Position numbers and translations under genes: made by a program. From NCBI GenBank assembly GCA_001664005.1, contig CP016093.1, positions 124,001 to 188,000 on the forward strand: DNA of 64,000 nt, in the 5' to 3' direction. The stretch's first letter is position 1, and each line of letters starts with the position of its first letter. Source of the DNA: Rhizobiales bacterium NRL2 (lineage in GTDB: Bacteria; Pseudomonadota; Alphaproteobacteria; Minwuiales; Minwuiaceae). Of this stretch, positions 17,845 through 54,998 are shown in pieces. The notes beneath the pieces are model-generated. The model had not been told where the DNA came from, searched no databases, and was given only the letters and a program-made list of their open reading frames with translations.

Positions 17845-18594
17845 CTACCCCCAATGCGCCGCGTCCGCGAGGCGATGTCCGCCCTCCTCCGGCGCCGCCT
17901 GCCGGGCGCGCGCCAGGAACACCGCGGCTTCGGTCCGGTTGCGCAGGTTGAGCCGGCCCAGAACCCGGCGCACGAGTGCCTTGGCGACGGCGTCGGTCAG
18001 GCCGAGTTCGCGTCCGATGGCGCGGTTGGTCGATCCACGGGCGAGCGCCTCCAGCACGCCCCGCTCGCGCGGATCCATCTCCTGCAGGGTGGCGCGGCGC
18101 AGGCTGAACAGGTCCAGCCCGCCTTCGGCGCCCGAGGGCACCACCCCATAGCCGAGCCGTGTCAGCCGCAACGCATCCGCCAGCCGCGCGGGGCCGAGAT
18201 CGGCGAACAGCCAGGCTTCGCCCAGCTTCATCGCAGGCGCGCCGTCCAGCAGTTCGTCCAGGGCCACCACCACGACCAGCCGCGCGCCACGCAGCAGGCC
18301 GAACAGCCTGAGCGTCTCGCCGCGCGGCAGGTTCCAGAAGGTGGCGTGCCAGACCAGCACGTCGGCGTTGGCGAAGTCGTGACGCTCCATCAGGCCGGCA
18401 AGTTCGTCCAGTCCGCCCGCACGCGTCACCGGCATGCCCTCGGCGCCCCGCAGGTCGCGGGCGATCCGCCGCAGCCGCGTGCGGCCGTCGTCATAGACGA
18501 CCACCGGTCGCGCCGGCTCCCGCACGATCGATTCCCGGCCGGTCATCGGACCCGATTGCCGGGCATCCCCGTGATCGGCGTCAGTCCTTTCCAT
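17845..18594 (-). CDS. LuxR-type regulator lacking a phospho-acceptor receiver
   Basis: A 249-residue regulator. The C-terminal LuxR helix-turn-helix is clear (MDPRERGVLEALARGSTNRAIGRELGLTDAVAKALVRRVLGRLNL, written here as a region, residues about 180-225). The N-terminal domain has receiver-like spacing, but the strand that should carry the phospho-aspartate reads ADVLVWHATF, so no acceptor is present. It is probably a ligand-, partner- or level-controlled factor in the manner of CsgD. Start is ATG 18594 (alternative ATG 18546). It is divergent from the CsgG/HfaB-like gene across a 311-bp AT-rich control region. Confidence 0.8.
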   Translation of the reverse strand: MERTDADHGDARQSGPMTGRESIVREPARPVVVYDDGRTRLRRIARDLRGAEGMPVTRAGGLDELAGLMERHDFANADVLVWHATFWNLPRGETLRLFGLLRGARLVVVVALDELLDGAPAMKLGEAWLFADLGPARLADALRLTRLGYGVVPSGAEGGLDLFSLRRATLQEMDPRERGVLEALARGSTNRAIGRELGLTDAVAKALVRRVLGRLNLRNRTEAAVFLARARQAAPEEGGHRLADAAHWG

Positions 18595-18905
18595 CTGATT
18601 CCTGACACTCCCAAAACGCCCTCTTTTCTCTATCTGCGCCACGCCGGCTGAATATGCCGTACTTGTTCGCGTCCATCGTACGAACAGATCCCCGCAACGC
18701 AATCAATCGGCCGTATTAGGCCTTTGGTTTTATTATTTACCCATGTTGGATTTGCACCTTCTCCGGAAGTGGTAGCCCCTTTTTTGCACCATGATACCCC
18801 TTTGATTTCTTTCAATCGCGCCGTTCAGACCCGAAACTCGTCACAGATCGAACACGGCGACAGCCGCCGCCCCAGACCGGCGGCGCGACCAAAGGGACAA
18901 ATGGG
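18595..18905. promoter_or_regulatory. Divergent control region of the curli-like locus, with an inverted repeat at 18664-18686
   Basis: This 311-bp interval between luxR2 and the CsgG-like gene is clearly AT-richer than the rest of the window. It contains the inverted repeat TGTTCG-N11-CGAACA at 18664-18686, a plausible LuxR operator, and two similar T-rich stretches (18775-18790 and 18797-18812) reading roughly AGCCCCTTTTTTGCACC and ATACCCCTTTGATTTC. No gene fits in it. Confidence 0.5.
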
Positions 18906-19745
18906 ATGCGAAGCAACAAGCAGAAAAAACGGTCCAGGCGGCTGGGCCAGGTCTCGACCATCGCGGCGGCGGCCCTGCTCGCGGCGGCCTGCGAAGGTCA
19001 CATCGAACACGGCGAGGACGGCGTGGATCCCGTCTTCAGTTTCCCCGTGACCAGCAACGAGACCCCCTATACCCAGTGCCTGTCCGGGCTTTCCCGGCAG
19101 GACGGCGACAACCTGCCGATCTTCGCGGTCGGCGAGGTGGCCGACAAATCGGGCCAGATCGACCTGCAGACGGGCAGCCGCGCGCTCAGCCAGGGCGTGT
19201 CCGAGATGGTCATCAGCGCACTGGGCCGCACGGGCAAGGTGCGCATGGTCGAACGCCTCGACCTGCGCATCCCGCTGGCCGAAATGAAGCTGGCCCAGGG
19301 CGGCCAGCTGGAACGCGATATCGACGACTACGAACTGCCGGCGAGCGATTTCATCGTCGCCGGCGCGCTGACCGAGCTGAACCACAACATCGCCAGCGGC
19401 GGCGTGCGCGCCGCGGTCAAGGGCGTTGGCGGTTCGGCCCGTTCGGTCGTCATCAACGTCGCTCTGGACCTTCGGGTGATCAACTCGCGGAACTTCACGG
19501 TGCCCTACACCCTCAGCCTGCAGAAGCAGATCTACGGCTACGAGGTGCAGGCCAATATCTTCCGCTTCTTCGGCGATCACCTGGTCGAGTTCGACGCCGG
19601 GCAGATCGAAAACGAACCTCTCCAGCTCGGCGTCAGGTCCGTCGTGGAAATGGCGGTTTACCGCGTCATGACGGACTTCCTCGGTCTCGAGCCGGACGCG
19701 CAATGCCGTCTGGTTCGGACCGATCACATGGGAGAGGAACTCTGA
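18906..19745 (+). CDS. CsgG/HfaB-family secretion lipoprotein
   Basis: A 279-residue outer-membrane lipoprotein of the CsgG/HfaB family. A basic n-region (RSNKQKKRSRR) leads to a hydrophobic core and lipobox-like LLAAAC with Cys29 as lipidation site. Family features follow: LPIFAVGEVADKSGQ (strand 1), GVSEMVISALGRTGKVRMVERLDL, DFIVAGALTELN, and the transmembrane hairpin area near SVVINVALDLRVINSRNFTV. CsgG forms a nonameric export pore for curli; HfaB exports holdfast-anchor proteins in Caulobacter. Here it leads an operon with two exported proteins, its likely cargo. ATG 18906 has AAGGGA upstream. Confidence 0.88.
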   Translation: MRSNKQKKRSRRLGQVSTIAAAALLAAACEGHIEHGEDGVDPVFSFPVTSNETPYTQCLSGLSRQDGDNLPIFAVGEVADKSGQIDLQTGSRALSQGVSEMVISALGRTGKVRMVERLDLRIPLAEMKLAQGGQLERDIDDYELPASDFIVAGALTELNHNIASGGVRAAVKGVGGSARSVVINVALDLRVINSRNFTVPYTLSLQKQIYGYEVQANIFRFFGDHLVEFDAGQIENEPLQLGVRSVVEMAVYRVMTDFLGLEPDAQCRLVRTDHMGEEL

Positions 19746-45043: not shown

Positions 45044-46126
45044 ATGAAGTTCGGCGGCATGGTGGCGACGAAGATCGACGACTGGGCGATCTTCCGGGAG
45101 CTGGAGGCGCTCGGCTACGACCACGGCTGGGCGCCCGACAGCCAGATGATCTGGTCGGACTGCTACGCCACCCTGGCGCTGGCGGCGCACCACACCAGCC
45201 GCATCCGCCTGGGCACCGGCGTCGCCATCGCCGGGACGCGGCTGGCGCCGGTGACCGCACATTCCATCGCCTCGATCAACAGGCTGGCCCCGGGCCGGAC
45301 CTTCATCGGCATCGGCACCGGCCACACGGCGATGCGCATCATGGGCGCCCGGCCGGTGAAGGCGAAGGCCTTCCGCGACTATCTGCGCGTCGTCCGCGGC
45401 CTGCTTGCCGGCGAGGAGGTCGAGTTCGAGCACAATGGCGAGGTCCGCCCGATCCGCTTCCTCGACCGGGAGCTGGATTGCCTCAACCTGGACGACCACG
45501 TCGACATCTACGTCGCCGCCAACGGCCCGAAGGCGCTGCGCGCCGCCGGGGCCTTTGGCGACGGGCGCATCTGCGCGGGCAACGAGCCGCTGGGCGTGCT
45601 GGCCAGGAACCTGGAGACCGCGCGCGAAGGCGCGGCAGAGGCGGGACGCGAGCTCGGCGACGACTTCCACACCGCCGCGCTCACCTTCGCCTGCGTGCTC
45701 AGGCCCGGCGAGACGCTCACCGACGAGCGGGTCATCGACGAGGTGGATTCGGCGGTCGTCTCCACCCTGCACTACTGGTACGAGCTTTATCAGGAACGGG
45801 GCCGGGACGATTTCGTCTCCGACCGGGTGCGCGGCACCTGGGAGGACTACAAGGCTCATGTCGAGGCAACGATGCCGGCGGCGCGCCGCCACCAGATGCT
45901 GCACCGCGGCCATTGCGCGTTCTGTCCGCCGGAGGAGCGCCGCTTCGTCACGCCCGACATGATCCGCATCGCCGGCGGCCTGGTGGGCGAGCCCGACGAG
46001 ATCGTCGAGCGGCTGGGTCAGCTCGAACAGGCCGGGCTGAAGGAGGTCACCCTGCTGCCGCCCGCGGCGCACATGCGCGCCAATTTCCGCGACTTCGCCG
46101 ATCAGGTCATGGCGCGGGTCAGGTAG
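45044..46126 (+). CDS. LLM-class flavin-dependent oxidoreductase
   Basis: A 360-residue luciferase-like TIM-barrel protein. ELEALGYDHGWAPDSQMIWSD, HHTSRIRLGTGVAIAGTR, RTFIGIGTGHTAMRIMGARP and DIYVAANGPKALRAAGAFGDG are family regions that bind FMN or F420 and the substrate. The GIGTG segment and IYVAANGPKALRAAG are typical of F420-type LLM proteins, but FMN use is equally possible in this phylum. ATG 45044 has GGGGAGGACGGCG upstream. Its end overlaps the convergent CMD gene by eight bases. Confidence 0.88.
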   Translation: MKFGGMVATKIDDWAIFRELEALGYDHGWAPDSQMIWSDCYATLALAAHHTSRIRLGTGVAIAGTRLAPVTAHSIASINRLAPGRTFIGIGTGHTAMRIMGARPVKAKAFRDYLRVVRGLLAGEEVEFEHNGEVRPIRFLDRELDCLNLDDHVDIYVAANGPKALRAAGAFGDGRICAGNEPLGVLARNLETAREGAAEAGRELGDDFHTAALTFACVLRPGETLTDERVIDEVDSAVVSTLHYWYELYQERGRDDFVSDRVRGTWEDYKAHVEATMPAARRHQMLHRGHCAFCPPEERRFVTPDMIRIAGGLVGEPDEIVERLGQLEQAGLKEVTLLPPAAHMRANFRDFADQVMARVR

Positions 46127-46526
46127 GGGCCTGGTCCGCCTCCGCCGGGTCGACGCCGATTTCCTCCAGCGCCTGGCGGGCGAGGCGGAAGGCCTCGACC
46201 CCGGCGGGCGCGCCGCAATAGACGGTCATGTGCAGCAGCGCGTCCTTCATCTCGGCCAGGGTCACACCGTTGTTGACGGCGCCCTTGACGTGCAGCTTGA
46301 ACTCCGTGCCCCGGCCGAGCGCGGCCAGCATCACCAGGTTGAGCAGGCTGCGGTCGCGGCGCGAGAGCGTCTCCTGCCCCCAGGCCGCGCCCCAGGCGCT
46401 GGCCGTTACCCAGTGCTGGAAGTCGCGGTTGAAGGCGTCGGCTGCGCCCATGGTCTTGTCGACATAGGCCTCGCCCAGCACCTCCTTGCGGATCTTCAGA
46501 CCCTTCTCGAACAGCTCGTCGCTCAT
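46119..46526 (-). CDS. Carboxymuconolactone decarboxylase family protein
   Basis: A 135-residue all-helical CMD protein: MSDELFEKGLKIRKEVLG, RDRSLLNLVMLAALGRGTEFKLHVKGAVNNGVT (given as a region) and LHMTVYCGAPAGVEAF. The EFKLHVKGAVNNGVT segment matches 4-carboxymuconolactone decarboxylase, the protocatechuate-pathway enzyme PcaC, although no other pca gene is nearby. Start ATG 46526. It is divergent from the metallo-beta-lactamase gene by 71 bp. Confidence 0.85.
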   Translation of the reverse strand: MSDELFEKGLKIRKEVLGEAYVDKTMGAADAFNRDFQHWVTASAWGAAWGQETLSRRDRSLLNLVMLAALGRGTEFKLHVKGAVNNGVTLAEMKDALLHMTVYCGAPAGVEAFRLARQALEEIGVDPAEADQAPT

Positions 46527-46597
46527 GGTTCTCTCCCCTCGCGCGGTGAATTGCGCCAGACTAGCGGAAAATCGAACGGGAAGCGGGGGAGGCAGCC

Positions 46598-47668
46598 ATG
46601 ACGACGCCACACGAATTCGAGGTCTACGCCATCAAGTACGCCGAGCGGGAGGCGCGCCGCGGCGATCACTTCATCGGCGGCGACCCGCATGACGCGCCCA
46701 TGGACATGGACTACTTCGTCTGGGCGCTGAAGCGCGACGGCAAGGTCTGGGTGGTCGACACCGGCTTCGACGCGCTCGACGCCGGGCGCCGCAACCGCCG
46801 GCTGGTGCGCACGGTGCGCGAGGGACTGGCGCTGGTCGGCGTCGACAGCCACCAGGTCGAAGACGTCATCGTCACCCACCTGCACTACGACCATATCGGC
46901 GGCTACGAGCATTTCCCCGCCGCCCGCTTCCATCTGCAGGACCGGGAGATGGCCTACGCCACGGGCCGGCAGATGACGCGCCCGGCGATCGCCCACGCCT
47001 ACACCCCCGAGCACATCGCCGACCTTGTCTTCCGCGTCTTCGAGGGGCGGGTGGAGTTTCACGACGGCGAGGCGGAGCTGGAGCCCGGCCTGTCGGTCCA
47101 CTGGGTCGGCGGGCACACGGCGGGGCTGCAGGTGGTGCGCGTGATGACGCGCATCGGCTGGATCGTGCTCGCCTCCGACGCCAGCCATTATTACGAGAAC
47201 ATGGAGGCCGACCGGCCCTTCGTCATCGTCTGGAACCAGGGCGAGATGCTCGACGCCTTCCGCATCATGCGCCGCCTGGCCGACGACCCGGCCTGGATCG
47301 TGCCCGGTCACGACCCGCGCGTATTCGAGCGCTACGCCGCCCCTTCTCCGGAGCTGGAAGGCAAGGTCGTGCGCCTGGACGCGGAACCGACGATGAATTC
47401 GAAAAGACCCAGAAAAGCGAAATCACCTGCGACAAACCGCGAATCGAATGCCAAATGGGACAAGGCCCTTCGAAGCATCATCCATAGTCGATGGTCGACA
47501 GGCGATATGTTCGAACTTTCCGATGTCTATATCTTCCAAAAATACCTCGAGGACCAATTCCCGAAGAACGAGCACATCAAACAGAAGGTACGGCAACGCC
47601 TTCAGTATCTCAGGGATCAGGGCGAGATCGAATTCCTGGGGAAAGGAAAGTATCGCCGAATTCGATAG
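46598..47668 (+). CDS. Lactonase-like metallo-beta-lactamase fused to a DpnI_C/Dam-replacing winged-helix domain
   Basis: A 356-residue two-part protein. Residues 1-265 form an MBL hydrolase like N-acyl homoserine lactonases: HLHYDHIGG (H94, H96, D98, H99), WVGGHTAG, ASDASHYYEN and IVPGHDPRV supply all metal ligands. Normal relatives end here. From Met266 (codon at 47393) a 91-residue tail follows, whose IIHSRWSTGDMFELSDVY, HIKQKVRQRLQYLRDQG and EIEFLGKGKYR match the DNA-binding C-terminal winged helix of DpnI and Dam-replacing proteins. The tail is AT-richer with different codon use, so it looks acquired. It could be a true fusion or a nuclease-gene remnant read in frame. Confidence 0.82.
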   Translation: MTTPHEFEVYAIKYAEREARRGDHFIGGDPHDAPMDMDYFVWALKRDGKVWVVDTGFDALDAGRRNRRLVRTVREGLALVGVDSHQVEDVIVTHLHYDHIGGYEHFPAARFHLQDREMAYATGRQMTRPAIAHAYTPEHIADLVFRVFEGRVEFHDGEAELEPGLSVHWVGGHTAGLQVVRVMTRIGWIVLASDASHYYENMEADRPFVIVWNQGEMLDAFRIMRRLADDPAWIVPGHDPRVFERYAAPSPELEGKVVRLDAEPTMNSKRPRKAKSPATNRESNAKWDKALRSIIHSRWSTGDMFELSDVYIFQKYLEDQFPKNEHIKQKVRQRLQYLRDQGEIEFLGKGKYRRIR

Positions 47669-47711
47669 TAGCCATCTTCATTGGCGGCGGCGGTTCGACG
47701 GCGTTGATCCC

Positions 47712-48557
47712 TCACCGACGTTCGGCGATCAGCCACATGTTGTCGGAGGTGGGCAGGCGGTCGGTCAGGCCGAAGCGGCGCACCTCGAAGCCGGCAGCGC
47801 GGACCATGCGCTCCAGGCTGGCGGGCGTGAAATAGTTGACGTGGTCGGGAAAACGGTAACCCGGCCAGTCCAGCCCCAGGACATGCCGCATCAGGCAGGC
47901 ATGGTTCGGCACCTTGATAATCGCCACGCCGCCCGGCGCCATGACCCGCGCCAGCGCCGCCAGTACCTCGGCTGGTTGCGTCTCGTGTTCCAGATAGGAG
48001 CGCAGCACCGCCCCGGTGAAGAAGCCGGCCTCGAAAGCGGCGAGCCCGTGCAGGGAGGCGGCGTTGACCGCCGCGCCGCCGCGCGGGGCGAAGGCGGCCC
48101 CGGCCCGGGCCGCCGCGCCGCGGTCGATCTCGACGCCGTAGGGCGTGAAGCGCGGGTCGAGATCGCGGAACTGCTTGCCGTCGCCGCAGCCGATGTCGAT
48201 CACAGGGCCCGGTGCGGCGTGGCGCAGCAAAAGTTCGCCGACGCGCCTGCGCGGGAACATGTGCAGGCGGAACCGGGTCAGGCGCGACAGGCGGTAGCCC
48301 ACGGGCCGGGCCGCCGCCCGGCGCTTCGCCTCCGCCCGCCAGGTGGTCTGCCAGGCCATGTTGTCGAACAGCTCGTCATAGACCGGCGCGTTTTCCAGAT
48401 AGACGAAGCCGCAGGCGGCGCAGGTCTTGATCCGCCAGCCGTCCCGGACATGGCGCGGCGGCCGGGCTGCATTGTCGGCGCCGCACTGGGGACAGTCGCG
48501 GCGGCTGGTGCGCACAGCGTCCGCCATCCTCTTCGCCGTCGTGGCGGGCGTCTCCAT
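47712..48557 (-). CDS. Zinc-ribbon class I SAM methyltransferase
   Basis: A 281-residue methyltransferase. The N-terminus carries a zinc ribbon ([11 protein letters not shown] ... [16 protein letters not shown]); the SAM domain has motif [13 protein letters not shown], the acidic loop [29 protein letters not shown] and [13 protein letters not shown]. This arrangement is typical of methyltransferases acting on sugars, lipids or small metabolites in gene clusters. The start could be ATG 48557 or an internal Met. It is divergent from ahcY. Confidence 0.8.
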
Positions 48558-48726
48558 GGACCTTCCACTCCCTGCCGGCGCGTCAGCGCGCGAACGCTGC
48601 GTGGATAGCGCCGCCGCCGCGCGCTGTCGAGGTGGACCTCTACCCGCCGAGGCGCTACATACGCGCGAATTCCACGCGCGCGCGGCCGGGTCCGCCGCGC
48701 CCCTCTGCCAGCGGAGCGAGAAAACC

Positions 48727-50022
48727 ATGAGCGGATCGTCAGACTACAAGGTTGCCGACATTTCACTTGCCGACTGGGGGCGCAAGGAAATCGAGATCGC
48801 CCAGACCGAGATGCCGGGTCTGATGGCGCTGCGTGAGGAGTACGGCGCGGAGCAGCCGCTGGCTGGGGCGCGGATTGCGGGCTGCCTGCACATGACGATC
48901 CAGACGGCGGTGCTGATCGAGACGCTGACGGCGCTGGGCGCCGAGGTGCGCTGGTCGTCGTGCAACATCTTCTCCACCCAGGACCAGGCGGCGGCGGCGA
49001 TCGCGGCCACCGGCGTGCCGGTGTTCGCCTGGAAGGGCATGGACGACGACGAGTTCTGGTGGGCCATCGACATGACCATCGAGGGCCCTGACGGCTGGCG
49101 GCCGAACATGATCCTGGACGACGGCGGCGACCTGACCCAGCGCATGCACGAGAAGTTCCCCGAACTGCTGGACGACGTGCGCGGCCTGTCGGAGGAGACC
49201 ACGACCGGCGTCATGCGGCTCTACGAGATGGCGCGGGCGGGCACGCTCAAGGTGCCGGCGATCAACGTCAACGATTCGGTGACCAAGTCGAAGTTCGACA
49301 ATCTCTACGGCTGCCGCGAGAGCCTGGTGGACGGCATCAAGCGGGCCACCGACGTGATGCTGGCGGGCAAGCTGGCGGTGGTCTGCGGCTATGGCGACGT
49401 GGGCAAGGGCTCGGCGGAGAGCCTGCGCAGCCAGGGCGCGCGCGTCGTCGTGACCGAGATCGACCCGATCTGCGCCCTGCAGGCGGCGATGGAGGGCTAC
49501 GAGGTCCGCACCATGGAGGACGTGGCGGCGTCCGGCGACATCTTCGTCACCGCGACGGGCAACAAGGACGTGATCACGGTCGAGCACATGCGCGCCATGA
49601 AGGACCGGGCGATCGTGTGCAACATCGGCCATTTCGATTCGGAGATCCAGGTCTCGGGGCTGCGCAACTACACTTGGCACAACGTCAAGCCGCAGGTCGA
49701 CGAGGTGGAGTTTCCCGACGGCAAGCGGCTGATCCTGCTGGCCGAGGGGCGTCTGGTGAACCTGGGCTGCGCCACGGGTCATCCGAGCTTCGTGATGAGC
49801 GCGTCGTTCACCAACCAGGTGCTGGCGCAGATCGAGCTGTGGCGCAACCACGCCAAGTACGGCCTGGAGGTCTACGTGCTGCCCAAGCACCTGGACGAGA
49901 AGGTCGCCGCGCTGCATCTGGGCCGTCTCGGCGTCAACCTGACGAAGCTCTCCCCCGACCAGGCCCGCTATCTCGGCATCCCCGAAAGCGGACCCTACAA
50001 ACCCGAACACTACAGGTACTGA
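48727..50022 (+). CDS. ahcY: Adenosylhomocysteinase, copy 1
   Basis: A 431-residue S-adenosylhomocysteine hydrolase that splits SAH to adenosine and homocysteine, relieving product inhibition of methyltransferases. Substrate-site motifs [16 protein letters not shown] and [13 protein letters not shown], the NAD site [13 protein letters not shown] and the C-terminal KPEHYRY are intact. Codons 27 to the stop (48805-50022) appear identical in DNA to the second copy at 53781-54998, whereas the first 26 codons differ. It begins the betaine/SAM-cycle island and ends at a strong terminator. GAGCGAGAAAACC precedes ATG 48727, a weak ribosome site. Confidence 0.95.
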
Positions 50023-50186: not shown

Positions 50187-50330
50187 TCCGGTGCGGCGCG
50201 TGAAGCCGCGCGGCCGGGCCGCGTCCGCCGGGATTCGACGCAGGTTCGCGCTCCCCGGCGGACCGGGATTGGCCAAGCCATTGCTCTGCAAGGAAATTTC
50301 CGAAATCCGTCACCACAAGTAACGGAACCC

Positions 50331-50420
50331 ATGACCTATAACACAAAAAAAATTGATGTCAAAGGTTATAAATTCAAACCGATGGGACTAGTCCATCCGA
50401 TGACGGTAATCGCCAACTGA
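50331..50420 (+). CDS. Candidate small ORF (29 residues) in the metK leader
   Basis: ATG 50331 opens a 29-codon frame with the product MTYNTKKIDVKGYKFKPMGL and on to VHPMTVIAN. It is lysine-rich and lies in an AT-rich pocket (about 50285-50530) unlike the surrounding GC-rich DNA. Only a weak AACGGAAC precedes it. It may be a real peptide, a leader, or chance. No family is recognised. Confidence 0.25.
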   Translation: MTYNTKKIDVKGYKFKPMGLVHPMTVIAN

Positions 50421-50525
50421 ACGTCGAAAAACAAATCGGAAGCTGCTGTATGTGTGCATCCGTGGGCCTTCCATGGGTGGCTATTCTGGGCGATTGCACA
50501 TGACAGAACGCTGTATTGACGGAAT

Positions 50526-50545
50526 TCGTGGCACGCCCGCCACGA
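50526..50545 (+). other. Stem-loop in the metK upstream region
   Basis: Arms 50526-50532 and 50539-50545 (TCGTGGC/GCCACGA) pair perfectly around a six-base loop, about 105 bp before metK, followed by TTCTTGATCTTTTC. This could be a weak terminator or leader element. No match to known SAM or SAH riboswitches was seen. Confidence 0.35.
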
Positions 50546-50650
50546 GTTCTTGATCTTTTCAGGCCGCGTTTCGCGAGGGGCGGGGCCGGAGGAGGCTTGA
50601 TCGGTCCGCCGCGGCCGGCCGCCGGAAACGCAAGACGAGGAAAACAGGAC

Positions 50651-51829
50651 ATGTCGCGCAATTACATCTTCACCTCCGAATCCGTGGGCGAGGGCCATCC
50701 CGACAAGATGGCCGACAACATCTCGGACGCCATTCTCGACGCCCTGCTGGCGGAGGACCCGAAGTCCCGTTCGGCCTGCGAGACCATGCTCAACACCGGC
50801 ATGGTGGTGGTCTCCGGCGAGATCACCTCGACGGCGAAGGTCGACTACACCGACGTGGTCCGTCAGACGATCCGCGACATCGGCTATGACGATCCGCGCT
50901 ACGGCTTCGACGCCGATGGCTGCGCGGTGCTCATCGCGCTGGACAAGCAGTCGCCGGACATCGCCCAGGGCGTCGACGAGGGCACGGGCCTCGACCTCGA
51001 CCAGGGCGCCGGCGACCAGGGGCTGATGTTCGGCTTCGCCTGCCGCGAGACCGAGCACCTGATGCCGCTGCCCATCGATCTGGCCCACAAGCTGACCCGC
51101 AAGCAGGCCGAAGTGCGGCGCGCCGGCAAGCTGCCCTGGCTGCGTCCCGACGTGAAGAGCCAGGTTTCCGTGCGCTACGAGAACGACCGGCCGACGGCCG
51201 TGGACGCGATCGTGCTCTCGACCCAGCATGACGACGGCGTCGACCACGCGACCATCCGCGAGGCGGTGATCGAGGAGATCGTCAAGCCCGTGCTTCCCGG
51301 ACGCTACGACGCCGGCGACATCACCTATCACATCAACCCCACCGGCAAGTTCGTGATCGGCGGCCCTGTCGGCGACTGCGGCCTGACGGGGCGCAAGATC
51401 ATCGTCGACACCTATGGCGGCATGGGCCGTCACGGCGGCGGCGCCTTCTCGGGCAAGGACCCCTCCAAGGTCGACCGTTCCGCCGCCTACGCCGCGCGCT
51501 ATGTCGCCAAGAACATCGTCGCCGCGGAACTGGCGGAAATGTGCGAGGTCCAGCTTTCCTACGCCATCGGCGTCAGCCAGCCGGTCTCCGTCGCGGTCAA
51601 CACCTTCGGCACCGGCCGCATCGCCGAGGACACGATCTCGGCGCTGGTGCGCGAGCATTTCGACCTGCGCCCGAAGGGCATCGTGCAGATGCTCGACCTG
51701 CTCCGCCCGATCTACCGCAAGACCGCGGCCTATGGGCATTTCGGCCGCGACGACGCCGATTTCACCTGGGAGAAGACCGACCGCGCCGCCGCGCTGCGCC
51801 AGGACGCCGGCGTGGCCGCCGCCGAGTAG
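50651..51829 (+). CDS. metK: Methionine adenosyltransferase
   Basis: A 392-residue S-adenosylmethionine synthetase, making SAM from methionine and ATP. Motifs are the N-terminal [19 protein letters not shown] (ATP/metal), [12 protein letters not shown], and the P-loop-like [19 protein letters not shown]. Full length for the family. It begins the run metK - betaine methyltransferase - ahcY2, so SAM supply is physically tied to a SAM-hungry pathway (three SAM per betaine). ATG 50651 is preceded by GACGAGGAAAACAGGAC. Whether a second metK exists elsewhere is unknown. Confidence 0.96.
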
Positions 51830-51884: not shown

Positions 51885-53570
51885 ATGCAGCAGCTACAGG
51901 ACCTGCAGAACCCTGAGCTCCTCGCCACCGCGCAGGACTACAGCGATGACGAGACCACGGACCGCGATTCCGGCCTCTACAGGGCCGAATACGTCATGTC
52001 CTTCGTCGAGAAGTGGGACGAGCTGATCGACTGGGACGCCCGCGCCCGCTCGGAAGGCAAGTTCTTCATCCAGATGCTCCAGGCGCTGGGCGCCAACCGC
52101 GTGCTCGACGTCGCCTGCGGCACGGGCTTCCATTCGGTGCAGCTCATGCAGGCCGGCTTCGACGTCACCAGCGCCGACGGCTCGGCGGCGATGGTGGCCA
52201 AGGCCTTCGAGAACGGCAAGAAGCACGGCCTGATCCTGAAGACGGTGCAGGCCGACTGGCGCTGGCTGACGCGCGACATCGTCGGCACCTACGACGCCGT
52301 GGTCTGCCTGGGCAATTCGTTCACCCACCTGCACGACGAGGCCGACCGCCGCCGCGCCCTGGCCGAGTTCTACTCGGTGCTCGGGCCCGACGGCGTGCTG
52401 ATCCTGGACCAGCGCAACTACGATTCGATCCTCGACGACGGCTTCAGCACCCAGCACAAGTACTACTATTGCGGCGAGCAGGTGACGGCGGAGCCGGAAT
52501 ATGTCGACGAGGGCCTGACGCGGTTCCGCTACACCTTCCCCGACGAGTCGGTCTACCACCTGAACATGTTCCCGCTGCGCAAGAACTACACCCGGCGGCT
52601 GATCGGGGAGGCGGGCTTCCAGGCCATCAAGACCTATGGCGACTTCAAGGAAACCTACCAGGAATCCGACCCGGATTTCTTCATCCATGTCGCCAACAAG
52701 GCCCATGCCGGGGTCGAGGAGATCAGCCCGCGCAAGGCCGCCTACGACAAGACCACGGCGGTGGCCGAGGACTACTACGACAGCTCCGACGCCGACGAGT
52801 TCTACTTCAACGTCTGGGGCGGCGAGGACATCCATGTCGGCATCTACGACAACTCGCCCGACATCCGCGAGGCCAGCCGCATCACCGTGGAGACCATGGC
52901 GGAGACGGTCGGCGAGATCCGGCCGGAGACCCGCATCATCGACCTGGGCGCGGGCTATGGCGGCGCGGCGCGCTATCTGGCGCGGACCTTCGACTGCTCG
53001 GTGACCTGCGTGAACATCTCCCGGGTGCAGAACATCCGCAACGAGCGGCTGACCGCGGCGCAGGACCTCGACGACCGCGTCAGCGTCGTCCACGGCGCCT
53101 TCGAGAGCGTGCCGGAGCCTGACGCGAGCTTCGACGTCGTCTGGTCGCAGGACGCCTTCCTGCATTCGGGCGAGCGCGAGAAGGTGCTGGCGGAGGCCTT
53201 CCGCCTGCTCCGACCCGGCGGCTCCCTGGTCTTCACCGACCCGATGCAGGCCGATGAGGTCGACGACCCGGAAGCGCTGCGCCCGGTCTACGAGCGTATC
53301 CACCTGGAGAGCCTCGGCTCCTTCGCCTTCTACCGCGAGGCGGCGAAGAAGGCCGGCTTCGAGGAGGTGCAGATGCGCGACTTCACCCCGCAGATCGCCA
53401 ATCACTACGGCCGGGTGGCCGAGGTGCTGACCCAGAACTACGACCGCATGCAGAAGAAGTCGTCGAAGGAATATCTCGACCGCATGCTGGTGGGGCTGGA
53501 CAACTGGGTGAAGGCCGGCGACGCCGGACTGCTCGCCTGGGGCGTGTTGCACTTCCGCAAGCCGCGCTGA
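51885..53570 (+). CDS. Bifunctional glycine/sarcosine and sarcosine/dimethylglycine N-methyltransferase (betaine synthesis)
   Basis: A 561-residue fusion of two SAM methyltransferases. Residues about 1-270 are the glycine/sarcosine N-methyltransferase half (DWDARARSEGKFFIQML, motif I VLDVACGTGFHS, DQRNYDSILD). Residues about 280-561 are the sarcosine/dimethylglycine N-methyltransferase half (VAEDYYDSSDADEFYFNVWG, motif I IIDLGAGYGGAA, VVWSQDAFLHSGER). Together they methylate glycine three times to glycine betaine, an osmoprotectant. Separate enzymes are known in Halorhodospira and fused forms in some actinobacteria. Flanking metK and ahcY provide and clear the cofactor. ATG 51885 is 55 bp after metK. 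Confidence 0.92.
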   Translation: MQQLQDLQNPELLATAQDYSDDETTDRDSGLYRAEYVMSFVEKWDELIDWDARARSEGKFFIQMLQALGANRVLDVACGTGFHSVQLMQAGFDVTSADGSAAMVAKAFENGKKHGLILKTVQADWRWLTRDIVGTYDAVVCLGNSFTHLHDEADRRRALAEFYSVLGPDGVLILDQRNYDSILDDGFSTQHKYYYCGEQVTAEPEYVDEGLTRFRYTFPDESVYHLNMFPLRKNYTRRLIGEAGFQAIKTYGDFKETYQESDPDFFIHVANKAHAGVEEISPRKAAYDKTTAVAEDYYDSSDADEFYFNVWGGEDIHVGIYDNSPDIREASRITVETMAETVGEIRPETRIIDLGAGYGGAARYLARTFDCSVTCVNISRVQNIRNERLTAAQDLDDRVSVVHGAFESVPEPDASFDVVWSQDAFLHSGEREKVLAEAFRLLRPGGSLVFTDPMQADEVDDPEALRPVYERIHLESLGSFAFYREAAKKAGFEEVQMRDFTPQIANHYGRVAEVLTQNYDRMQKKSSKEYLDRMLVGLDNWVKAGDAGLLAWGVLHFRKPR

Positions 53571-53654: not shown

Positions 53655-53696
53655 GCGCTATCTCCGACATCAACAACGACGAAGGAACGAAGCGAA

Positions 53697-54998
53697 ATGG
53701 ACGTTCATTCACCCACCGACTGCCGCGTGAAGGACATGACCCTGGCGCAATGGGGCCGCAGCGAGATCGCCATTGCGGAAACCGAGATGCCGGGTCTGAT
53801 GGCGCTGCGTGAGGAGTACGGCGCGGAGCAGCCGCTGGCTGGGGCGCGGATTGCGGGCTGCCTGCACATGACGATCCAGACGGCGGTGCTGATCGAGACG
53901 CTGACGGCGCTGGGCGCCGAGGTGCGCTGGTCGTCGTGCAACATCTTCTCCACCCAGGACCAGGCGGCGGCGGCGATCGCGGCCACCGGCGTGCCGGTGT
54001 TCGCCTGGAAGGGCATGGACGACGACGAGTTCTGGTGGGCCATCGACATGACCATCGAGGGCCCTGACGGCTGGCGGCCGAACATGATCCTGGACGACGG
54101 CGGCGACCTGACCCAGCGCATGCACGAGAAGTTCCCCGAACTGCTGGACGACGTGCGCGGCCTGTCGGAGGAGACCACGACCGGCGTCATGCGGCTCTAC
54201 GAGATGGCGCGGGCGGGCACGCTCAAGGTGCCGGCGATCAACGTCAACGATTCGGTGACCAAGTCGAAGTTCGACAATCTCTACGGCTGCCGCGAGAGCC
54301 TGGTGGACGGCATCAAGCGGGCCACCGACGTGATGCTGGCGGGCAAGCTGGCGGTGGTCTGCGGCTATGGCGACGTGGGCAAGGGCTCGGCGGAGAGCCT
54401 GCGCAGCCAGGGCGCGCGCGTCGTCGTGACCGAGATCGACCCGATCTGCGCCCTGCAGGCGGCGATGGAGGGCTACGAGGTCCGCACCATGGAGGACGTG
54501 GCGGCGTCCGGCGACATCTTCGTCACCGCGACGGGCAACAAGGACGTGATCACGGTCGAGCACATGCGCGCCATGAAGGACCGGGCGATCGTGTGCAACA
54601 TCGGCCATTTCGATTCGGAGATCCAGGTCTCGGGGCTGCGCAACTACACTTGGCACAACGTCAAGCCGCAGGTCGACGAGGTGGAGTTTCCCGACGGCAA
54701 GCGGCTGATCCTGCTGGCCGAGGGGCGTCTGGTGAACCTGGGCTGCGCCACGGGTCATCCGAGCTTCGTGATGAGCGCGTCGTTCACCAACCAGGTGCTG
54801 GCGCAGATCGAGCTGTGGCGCAACCACGCCAAGTACGGCCTGGAGGTCTACGTGCTGCCCAAGCACCTGGACGAGAAGGTCGCCGCGCTGCATCTGGGCC
54901 GTCTCGGCGTCAACCTGACGAAGCTCTCCCCCGACCAGGCCCGCTATCTCGGCATCCCCGAAAGCGGACCCTACAAACCCGAACACTACAGGTACTGA
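53697..54998 (+). CDS. ahcY: Adenosylhomocysteinase, copy 2
   Basis: A 433-residue SAH hydrolase with the same catalytic core as copy 1. From codon 29 to the stop (53781-54998) the DNA appears identical to copy 1, 1,218 bp without an indel; only the first 28 codons ([20 protein letters not shown] and the next eight) and the flanks differ. It lies directly upstream of divL, a position seen for ahcY in other Alphaproteobacteria as far as I recall, so this is probably the ancestral locus. GAAGGAACGAAGCGAA precedes ATG 53697. It serves the betaine methyltransferase upstream as well as general methylation. Confidence 0.95.

Follow-up and report, generated by a model that had tools for sequence, protein, structure and literature searches.

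The window, that is, the whole stretch of 64,000 nucleotides analysed (G000:C1:124001-188000, in the single 4.70 Mb contig of the host genome G000), contains at 46598-47668 a plus-strand open reading frame of 356 amino acids with an ATG start, in which a metallo-beta-lactamase (MBL) fold hydrolase continues in frame into an AT-rich segment of foreign origin. The neighbouring genes encode a carboxymuconolactone-decarboxylase-family protein, a class I SAM methyltransferase and S-adenosylhomocysteine hydrolase (Table 1).

Table 1. Features at the locus, with window coordinates.
Feature	Position	Strand	Evidence
MBL-fold (lactonase-like) hydrolase, residues 1-264/265	46598..47390	+	Pfam Lactamase_B, orthologues, ligand motif positions
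Foreign AT-rich 3' segment, in frame, residues 265-356	47391..47668	+	Pfam DpnI_C, AlphaFold/Foldseek, GC shift, absent from G005
Internal ATG (residue M266), where a 91-aa winged-helix protein might start separately	47393..47395	+	Sequence
Right-hand edge of the foreign segment	47669..47711	.	GC back at host level between about 47680 and 47711 (30-base scan)
Class I SAM methyltransferase (Methyltransf_23)	47712..48557	-	Adjoins ahcY, divergent, in five congeners; missing in G005
ahcY (S-adenosylhomocysteine hydrolase), downstream synteny anchor	48727..50022	+	Synteny comparison
Carboxymuconolactone-decarboxylase-family gene	46119..46610	-	Near MBL in 5/6 congeners; the sixth, G004, is on a 6-kb contig

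The Pfam family Lactamase_B covers residues 41-238 of the product (E 7e-16), and the metal ligands are complete, namely H94, H96, D98 and H99 (HLHYDH at 94-99), H173, D194 and H238. An earlier note on this DNA, which had taken residues 1-265 for a complete MBL enzyme, was therefore right on this point. The HxHxDH-H-D-H ligands are shared with the AiiA/AttM/4-pyridoxolactonase group of MBL-fold lactonases, to which the best NCBIfam matches also belong. However, the protein falls far below the cut-offs of all the lactonase models (65.4 bits against 375 for AiiA), and the quorum-quenching type of hydrolase proposed in the same note finds no support. Taking into account these weak matches and the nearby carboxymuconolactone-decarboxylase-family gene, which suggests catabolism, the enzyme is likelier to be a catabolic lactone hydrolase than a quorum quencher.

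The foreign segment consists of a linker, MNSKRPRKAKSPATNRES, and a DpnI_C winged helix (wH; residues about 284-356), and finishes in a natural-looking C-terminus (...GKGKYRRIR*). Its assignment to the DpnI/Dam-replacing winged helices, together with its descent from a reader of methylated DNA, had been anticipated from the letters and is reinforced by the agreement of several methods. Thus, DpnI_C (PF17726, 'Dam-replacing HTH domain') matches residues 303-353 with 69.9 bits (E 2.1e-19), the cut-off being 23, phmmer with the tail as query retrieves the DpnI chain 4esj (E 1.7e-12), and PADLOC aligns the tail to the last 54 residues of a methyl-directed type II restriction-enzyme model. The AlphaFold model of the 91-residue tail has a mean pLDDT of 82, its first 20 residues being poorly ordered, and Foldseek superimposes it on DpnI 4kyw/4esj with E of about 3e-5 to 6e-5 and 1.3-1.4 A, DpnI residues 183-254 being the winged-helix reference for the fold. 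For the recognition of Gm6ATC, the residues reported to be key are K229, R231 and Q235 of DpnI, and K197, R199 and Q200 of HHPV4I, an enzyme of an archaeal virus (PMC10101028). By alignment, K330, R332, Q333 and Q336 of the tail correspond to DpnI K229, R231, Q232 and Q235, all identical, and since these contact residues are all kept, the domain looks competent to bind Gm6ATC-like DNA and may still bind methylated DNA. The first 18 residues of the foreign piece are basic and unlike the DpnI catalytic domain; PF06044, the PD-(D/E)XK catalytic domain, is absent from the G000 genome, and no catalytic-domain sequence was found in the region either.

The two parts meet at 47390/47391, where composition switches abruptly. 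From the MBL part to the tail, GC content goes down from 0.69 to 0.48 and GC3 from 0.93 to 0.57, and in 30-base windows GC falls from 0.73 to 0.43 between 47360 and 47390. In G005, the closest relative, the syntenic DNA matches at 95% identity as far as 47390 exactly; G005 lacks 47391-48609 (1219 bp), and the match starts again at 48610, upstream of ahcY. The shift in composition and codons at 47390, as stated in the earlier note, holds in this comparison, and the acquired origin of the DNA beyond it is supported. Two nucleotides of the foreign DNA precede its own ATG (47393). At the other end of this segment, 47669-47711 shows no homology to congener loci, and the right edge, GGCGGTT...TTGATCCC, vaguely resembles the native end of the G005 MBL gene, AAAGGCGGTTGATGCCC, a match too short to rely on. 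When an insertion footprint was looked for, nothing convincing appeared at 47390 or 47700, neither direct repeats nor mobile-element ends, only short repeats at chance level. An assembly or sequencing artefact, either a chimeric join or a misread stop codon, is extremely improbable, given the single contig, the syntenic host genes flanking the segment on both sides, and a clean compositional switch with a coherent foreign domain, unlike what indel errors produce.

Two further AT-rich stretches were observed in the window, whose GC content is 69%. One of them, 50201-50500 (about 48%), lies directly upstream of metK, matches no Rfam family at the gathering threshold and could be a leader not yet described or a further unameliorated insert; the other is located at 18551-18950 (50-54%).

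MBL orthologues are present in 6/6 congeners, with 79-97% identity; all are tail-less and finish around residue 266. That of G005 terminates in ...RLDAEP-KGG*, exactly where the foreign DNA of the window starts, and those of the other five congeners end at the same place (MPSRG*, KPEPG*, KPKIG*, KPAKG*). Since all of them stop near residue 266, the tail-less MBL is the ancestral form and the fusion a derived state of the G000 lineage, the MBL part itself having been inherited vertically. The possibility that the 1219 bp absent from G005 represent one insertion was rejected, because the methyltransferase part adjoins ahcY in five congeners. As these five keep the gene in that place, it was most likely lost in G005 and lies outside the insert, and the foreign DNA is the AT-rich part, from 47391 to somewhere before 47711. 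Therefore, G005 does not offer a clean 'empty site', and the common ancestor could have had a wH gene between the MBL and the methyltransferase genes. That the in-frame fusion itself was ancestral is unlikely, taking into account that G005 retains the ancestral-type MBL end.

Downstream of this locus, the window carries a second ahcY copy (53688-54998), 98.7% identical to the first over 1266 bp, and the pair flanks metK (50516-51829) and, at 51885-53570, a gene made up of two SAM-methyltransferase-like halves. The pair looks like a duplication with gene conversion, and the cluster possibly serves glycine-betaine synthesis. The contig of G005 breaks off precisely at the stop codon of ahcY, which would be expected if that genome also has both copies. 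Elsewhere in G000 there is one D12-type adenine methyltransferase (C1:60083-60781; L048 1438-2256), which may belong to a prophage or another mobile element.

Compared with G005, the MBL part shows 19 synonymous and 8 nonsynonymous codon differences, and the polarised nonsynonymous changes are three per side; of the three in G000, one (residue 265) falls at the junction itself. This ratio, together with the equal number of lineage-specific changes, gives no sign of repurposing, and the enzyme is still constrained and was not specially altered by the gain of the tail. The tail itself has no orthologue for such a comparison. An open tail frame is expected without selection, and the fusion would be younger than a divergence of 5%; the tail is thus too young for its intact frame to be a sign of selection.

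The DpnI_C domain was found in 0/6 congeners, in 4/385 genomes of the class and in 11/398 of the phylum, G000 included, and wherever the frame could be read its other partners are DpnI-type, HNH or McrB-like. With the 356-residue protein as query, MBL homologues appear in 68/385 class genomes, G000 included, and among the matches listed in those 68 genomes none but the window's own gene reaches residue 303. A peptide-pattern scan of GTDB gave five DpnI_C relatives, four of them ordinary DpnI genes and the fifth the locus L014, discussed below. The idea that other genomes share the two-domain architecture has thus met with no case in the genus, the relatives, the class, the phylum, the GTDB pattern scan, IMG/VR, plasmids or phages, scans that sample known genomes and are compatible with a rare fusion elsewhere. 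A second, complete DpnI gene that could act as donor does not exist in the G000 genome. No gene that shares the linker turned up as a source of the foreign segment, no plasmid matched the foreign piece at the DNA level, and no PF17726-lactamase fusion was found in open-access papers.

A different fusion was observed in L036 (1243-2616; Lactiplantibacillus plantarum plasmid NZ_CP028262.1), where a DpnI_C wH is joined to sigma-70 regions 2, 3 and 4, and a DEAD/DEAH helicase gene comes after it. Four plasmids matched this combination, a possible methyl-DNA-reading sigma factor that is arguably more interesting than the MBL fusion.

Since no relative carries the fusion, a recent accident in a single lineage, in which the 3' portion of an acquired DpnI-type gene became fused to the MBL hydrolase gene, is most likely rather than a new kind of enzyme, and we consider this explanation probable. 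The 3' portion would come from a gene gained by horizontal transfer whose C-terminus is a DpnI-type winged helix, and it would have reached the end of the MBL gene either through insertion or because the DNA in between, nuclease half included, was deleted. In the process, the MBL gene would have lost its last codons and stop, so that its frame now extends 92 codons into the foreign piece. The source may have been a gene of the PD-(D/E)XK-wH or PLD-wH type, because the stop falls where such proteins end. The MBL part would keep its normal job, and the tail, if folded, would bind Gm6ATC-like DNA without a selected role. That a 5' loss of dpnI can leave its wH end against a neighbour is illustrated by L014 (3957-4156), a Eubacteriales MAG and thus from an unrelated bacterium, in which the maf stop is abutted by an orphan DpnI wH remnant that lacks the nuclease half and corresponds to no more than DpnI residues 191-254. 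Both cases place a wH-only dpnI remnant at the 3' end of an unrelated gene, although that of L014 lies beyond the upstream stop and lacks an ATG start, whereas the piece in the window is in frame and translatable as a fusion.

Several observations count against the accident. The frame is fully intact, all the DpnI-type DNA-contact residues are kept, and a start 2 nt before an ATG followed by 18 non-nuclease residues is not expected from random truncation. The earlier note had offered a restriction gene, inserted and then lost but for its 3' end in frame, as one of two alternatives. It is the better of the two, with the reservation that the piece starts 2 nt ahead of its ATG and includes no catalytic-domain sequence.

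The main rival of the accident takes the ATG at 47393 as the start of a complete small gene, encoding a stand-alone, basic-tailed wH DNA-binding protein of 91 residues; the gene would have inserted right where the MBL ends, its product being made through re-initiation or as a tail of the MBL. The position of the ATG, with a weak Shine-Dalgarno-like GGAA 6 nt upstream, and the presence of a whole wH domain behind a basic stretch of 18 residues that is not nuclease-like are in agreement with it. However, no such DpnI_C gene has been found, the complete relatives being nuclease, NTPase-like or sigma fusions and the short ones either a remnant (L014) or truncated where their contigs end; there is no promoter-like site near this ATG, and the MBL has no stop before the foreign piece. 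We regard this reading as unlikely.

It could also be proposed that the protein is a functional two-domain enzyme whose wH tail anchors the hydrolase on m6A-methylated DNA, where the MBL part might act as a nuclease or phosphodiesterase. The intact frame, the match of K330, R332, Q333 and Q336 to the Gm6ATC-reading residues of DpnI (PMC10101028), the existence of MBL plus winged-helix proteins (LACTB2, a weak fold match), the combinatorial use of DpnI_C (PMC11037411) and the D12-type adenine methyltransferase of G000 would favour it. Against it, the fusion occurs in one genome only among those searched, the MBL is lactonase-like and belongs to no nuclease subfamily, and so young a tail gives no grounds for inferring selection. 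Moreover, tail-less orthologues are conserved across the class, and the enzyme thus does not need the tail. We consider this reading quite unlikely, and the functional hydrolase with a methyl-DNA reader that the earlier note had raised finds no support beyond the intact frame and the conserved contact residues. It is more doubtful still that we face a newborn fusion, a metallo-hydrolase with a working m6A-DNA reader recruited to methylated (e.g., phage or Dam-modified) DNA.

The fusion invites comparison with three further known systems. With DpnI and the Dam-replacing winged helices (PF17726; 4esj, 4kyw) the tail shares 42-43% domain identity, the fold and the contact residues K, R, Q and Q; unlike DpnI, the window protein has no PD-(D/E)XK domain, its partner is a hydrolase, and its 18-residue basic linker has no resemblance to DpnI. 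In the LACTB2-type proteins, too, a winged helix stands C-terminal to an MBL fold, but the tail matches 4ad9 weakly (Foldseek E 0.19), identity is 12-14%, the wH family differs, that of the window being DpnI_C, and their characteristic second wH domain gave no Pfam match in the window protein at E up to 1. The wH fusion endonucleases comprise PD-(D/E)XK-wH, PUA-wH-HNH, wH-HNH, wH-GIY-YIG and PLD-wH (PMC11037411), and that work names nuclease and NTPase partners of the wH and no MBL, the word 'lactamase' being absent from its text. The window protein likewise joins a wH to an enzymatic domain, but it has no evident nuclease and its fusion is known from one genome only. If the reader works, this would be the first MBL among the otherwise nuclease-dominated DpnI-type wH fusions, and if the tail is active, the partners of the DpnI wH would extend beyond nucleases and NTPases. 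As a likely accident its importance is modest; even so, it provides a clear, datable in-frame stop loss, through which a conserved enzyme and a methyl-DNA-binding domain that is still intact became one reading frame, and joins of this kind are raw material that can give rise to multidomain proteins.
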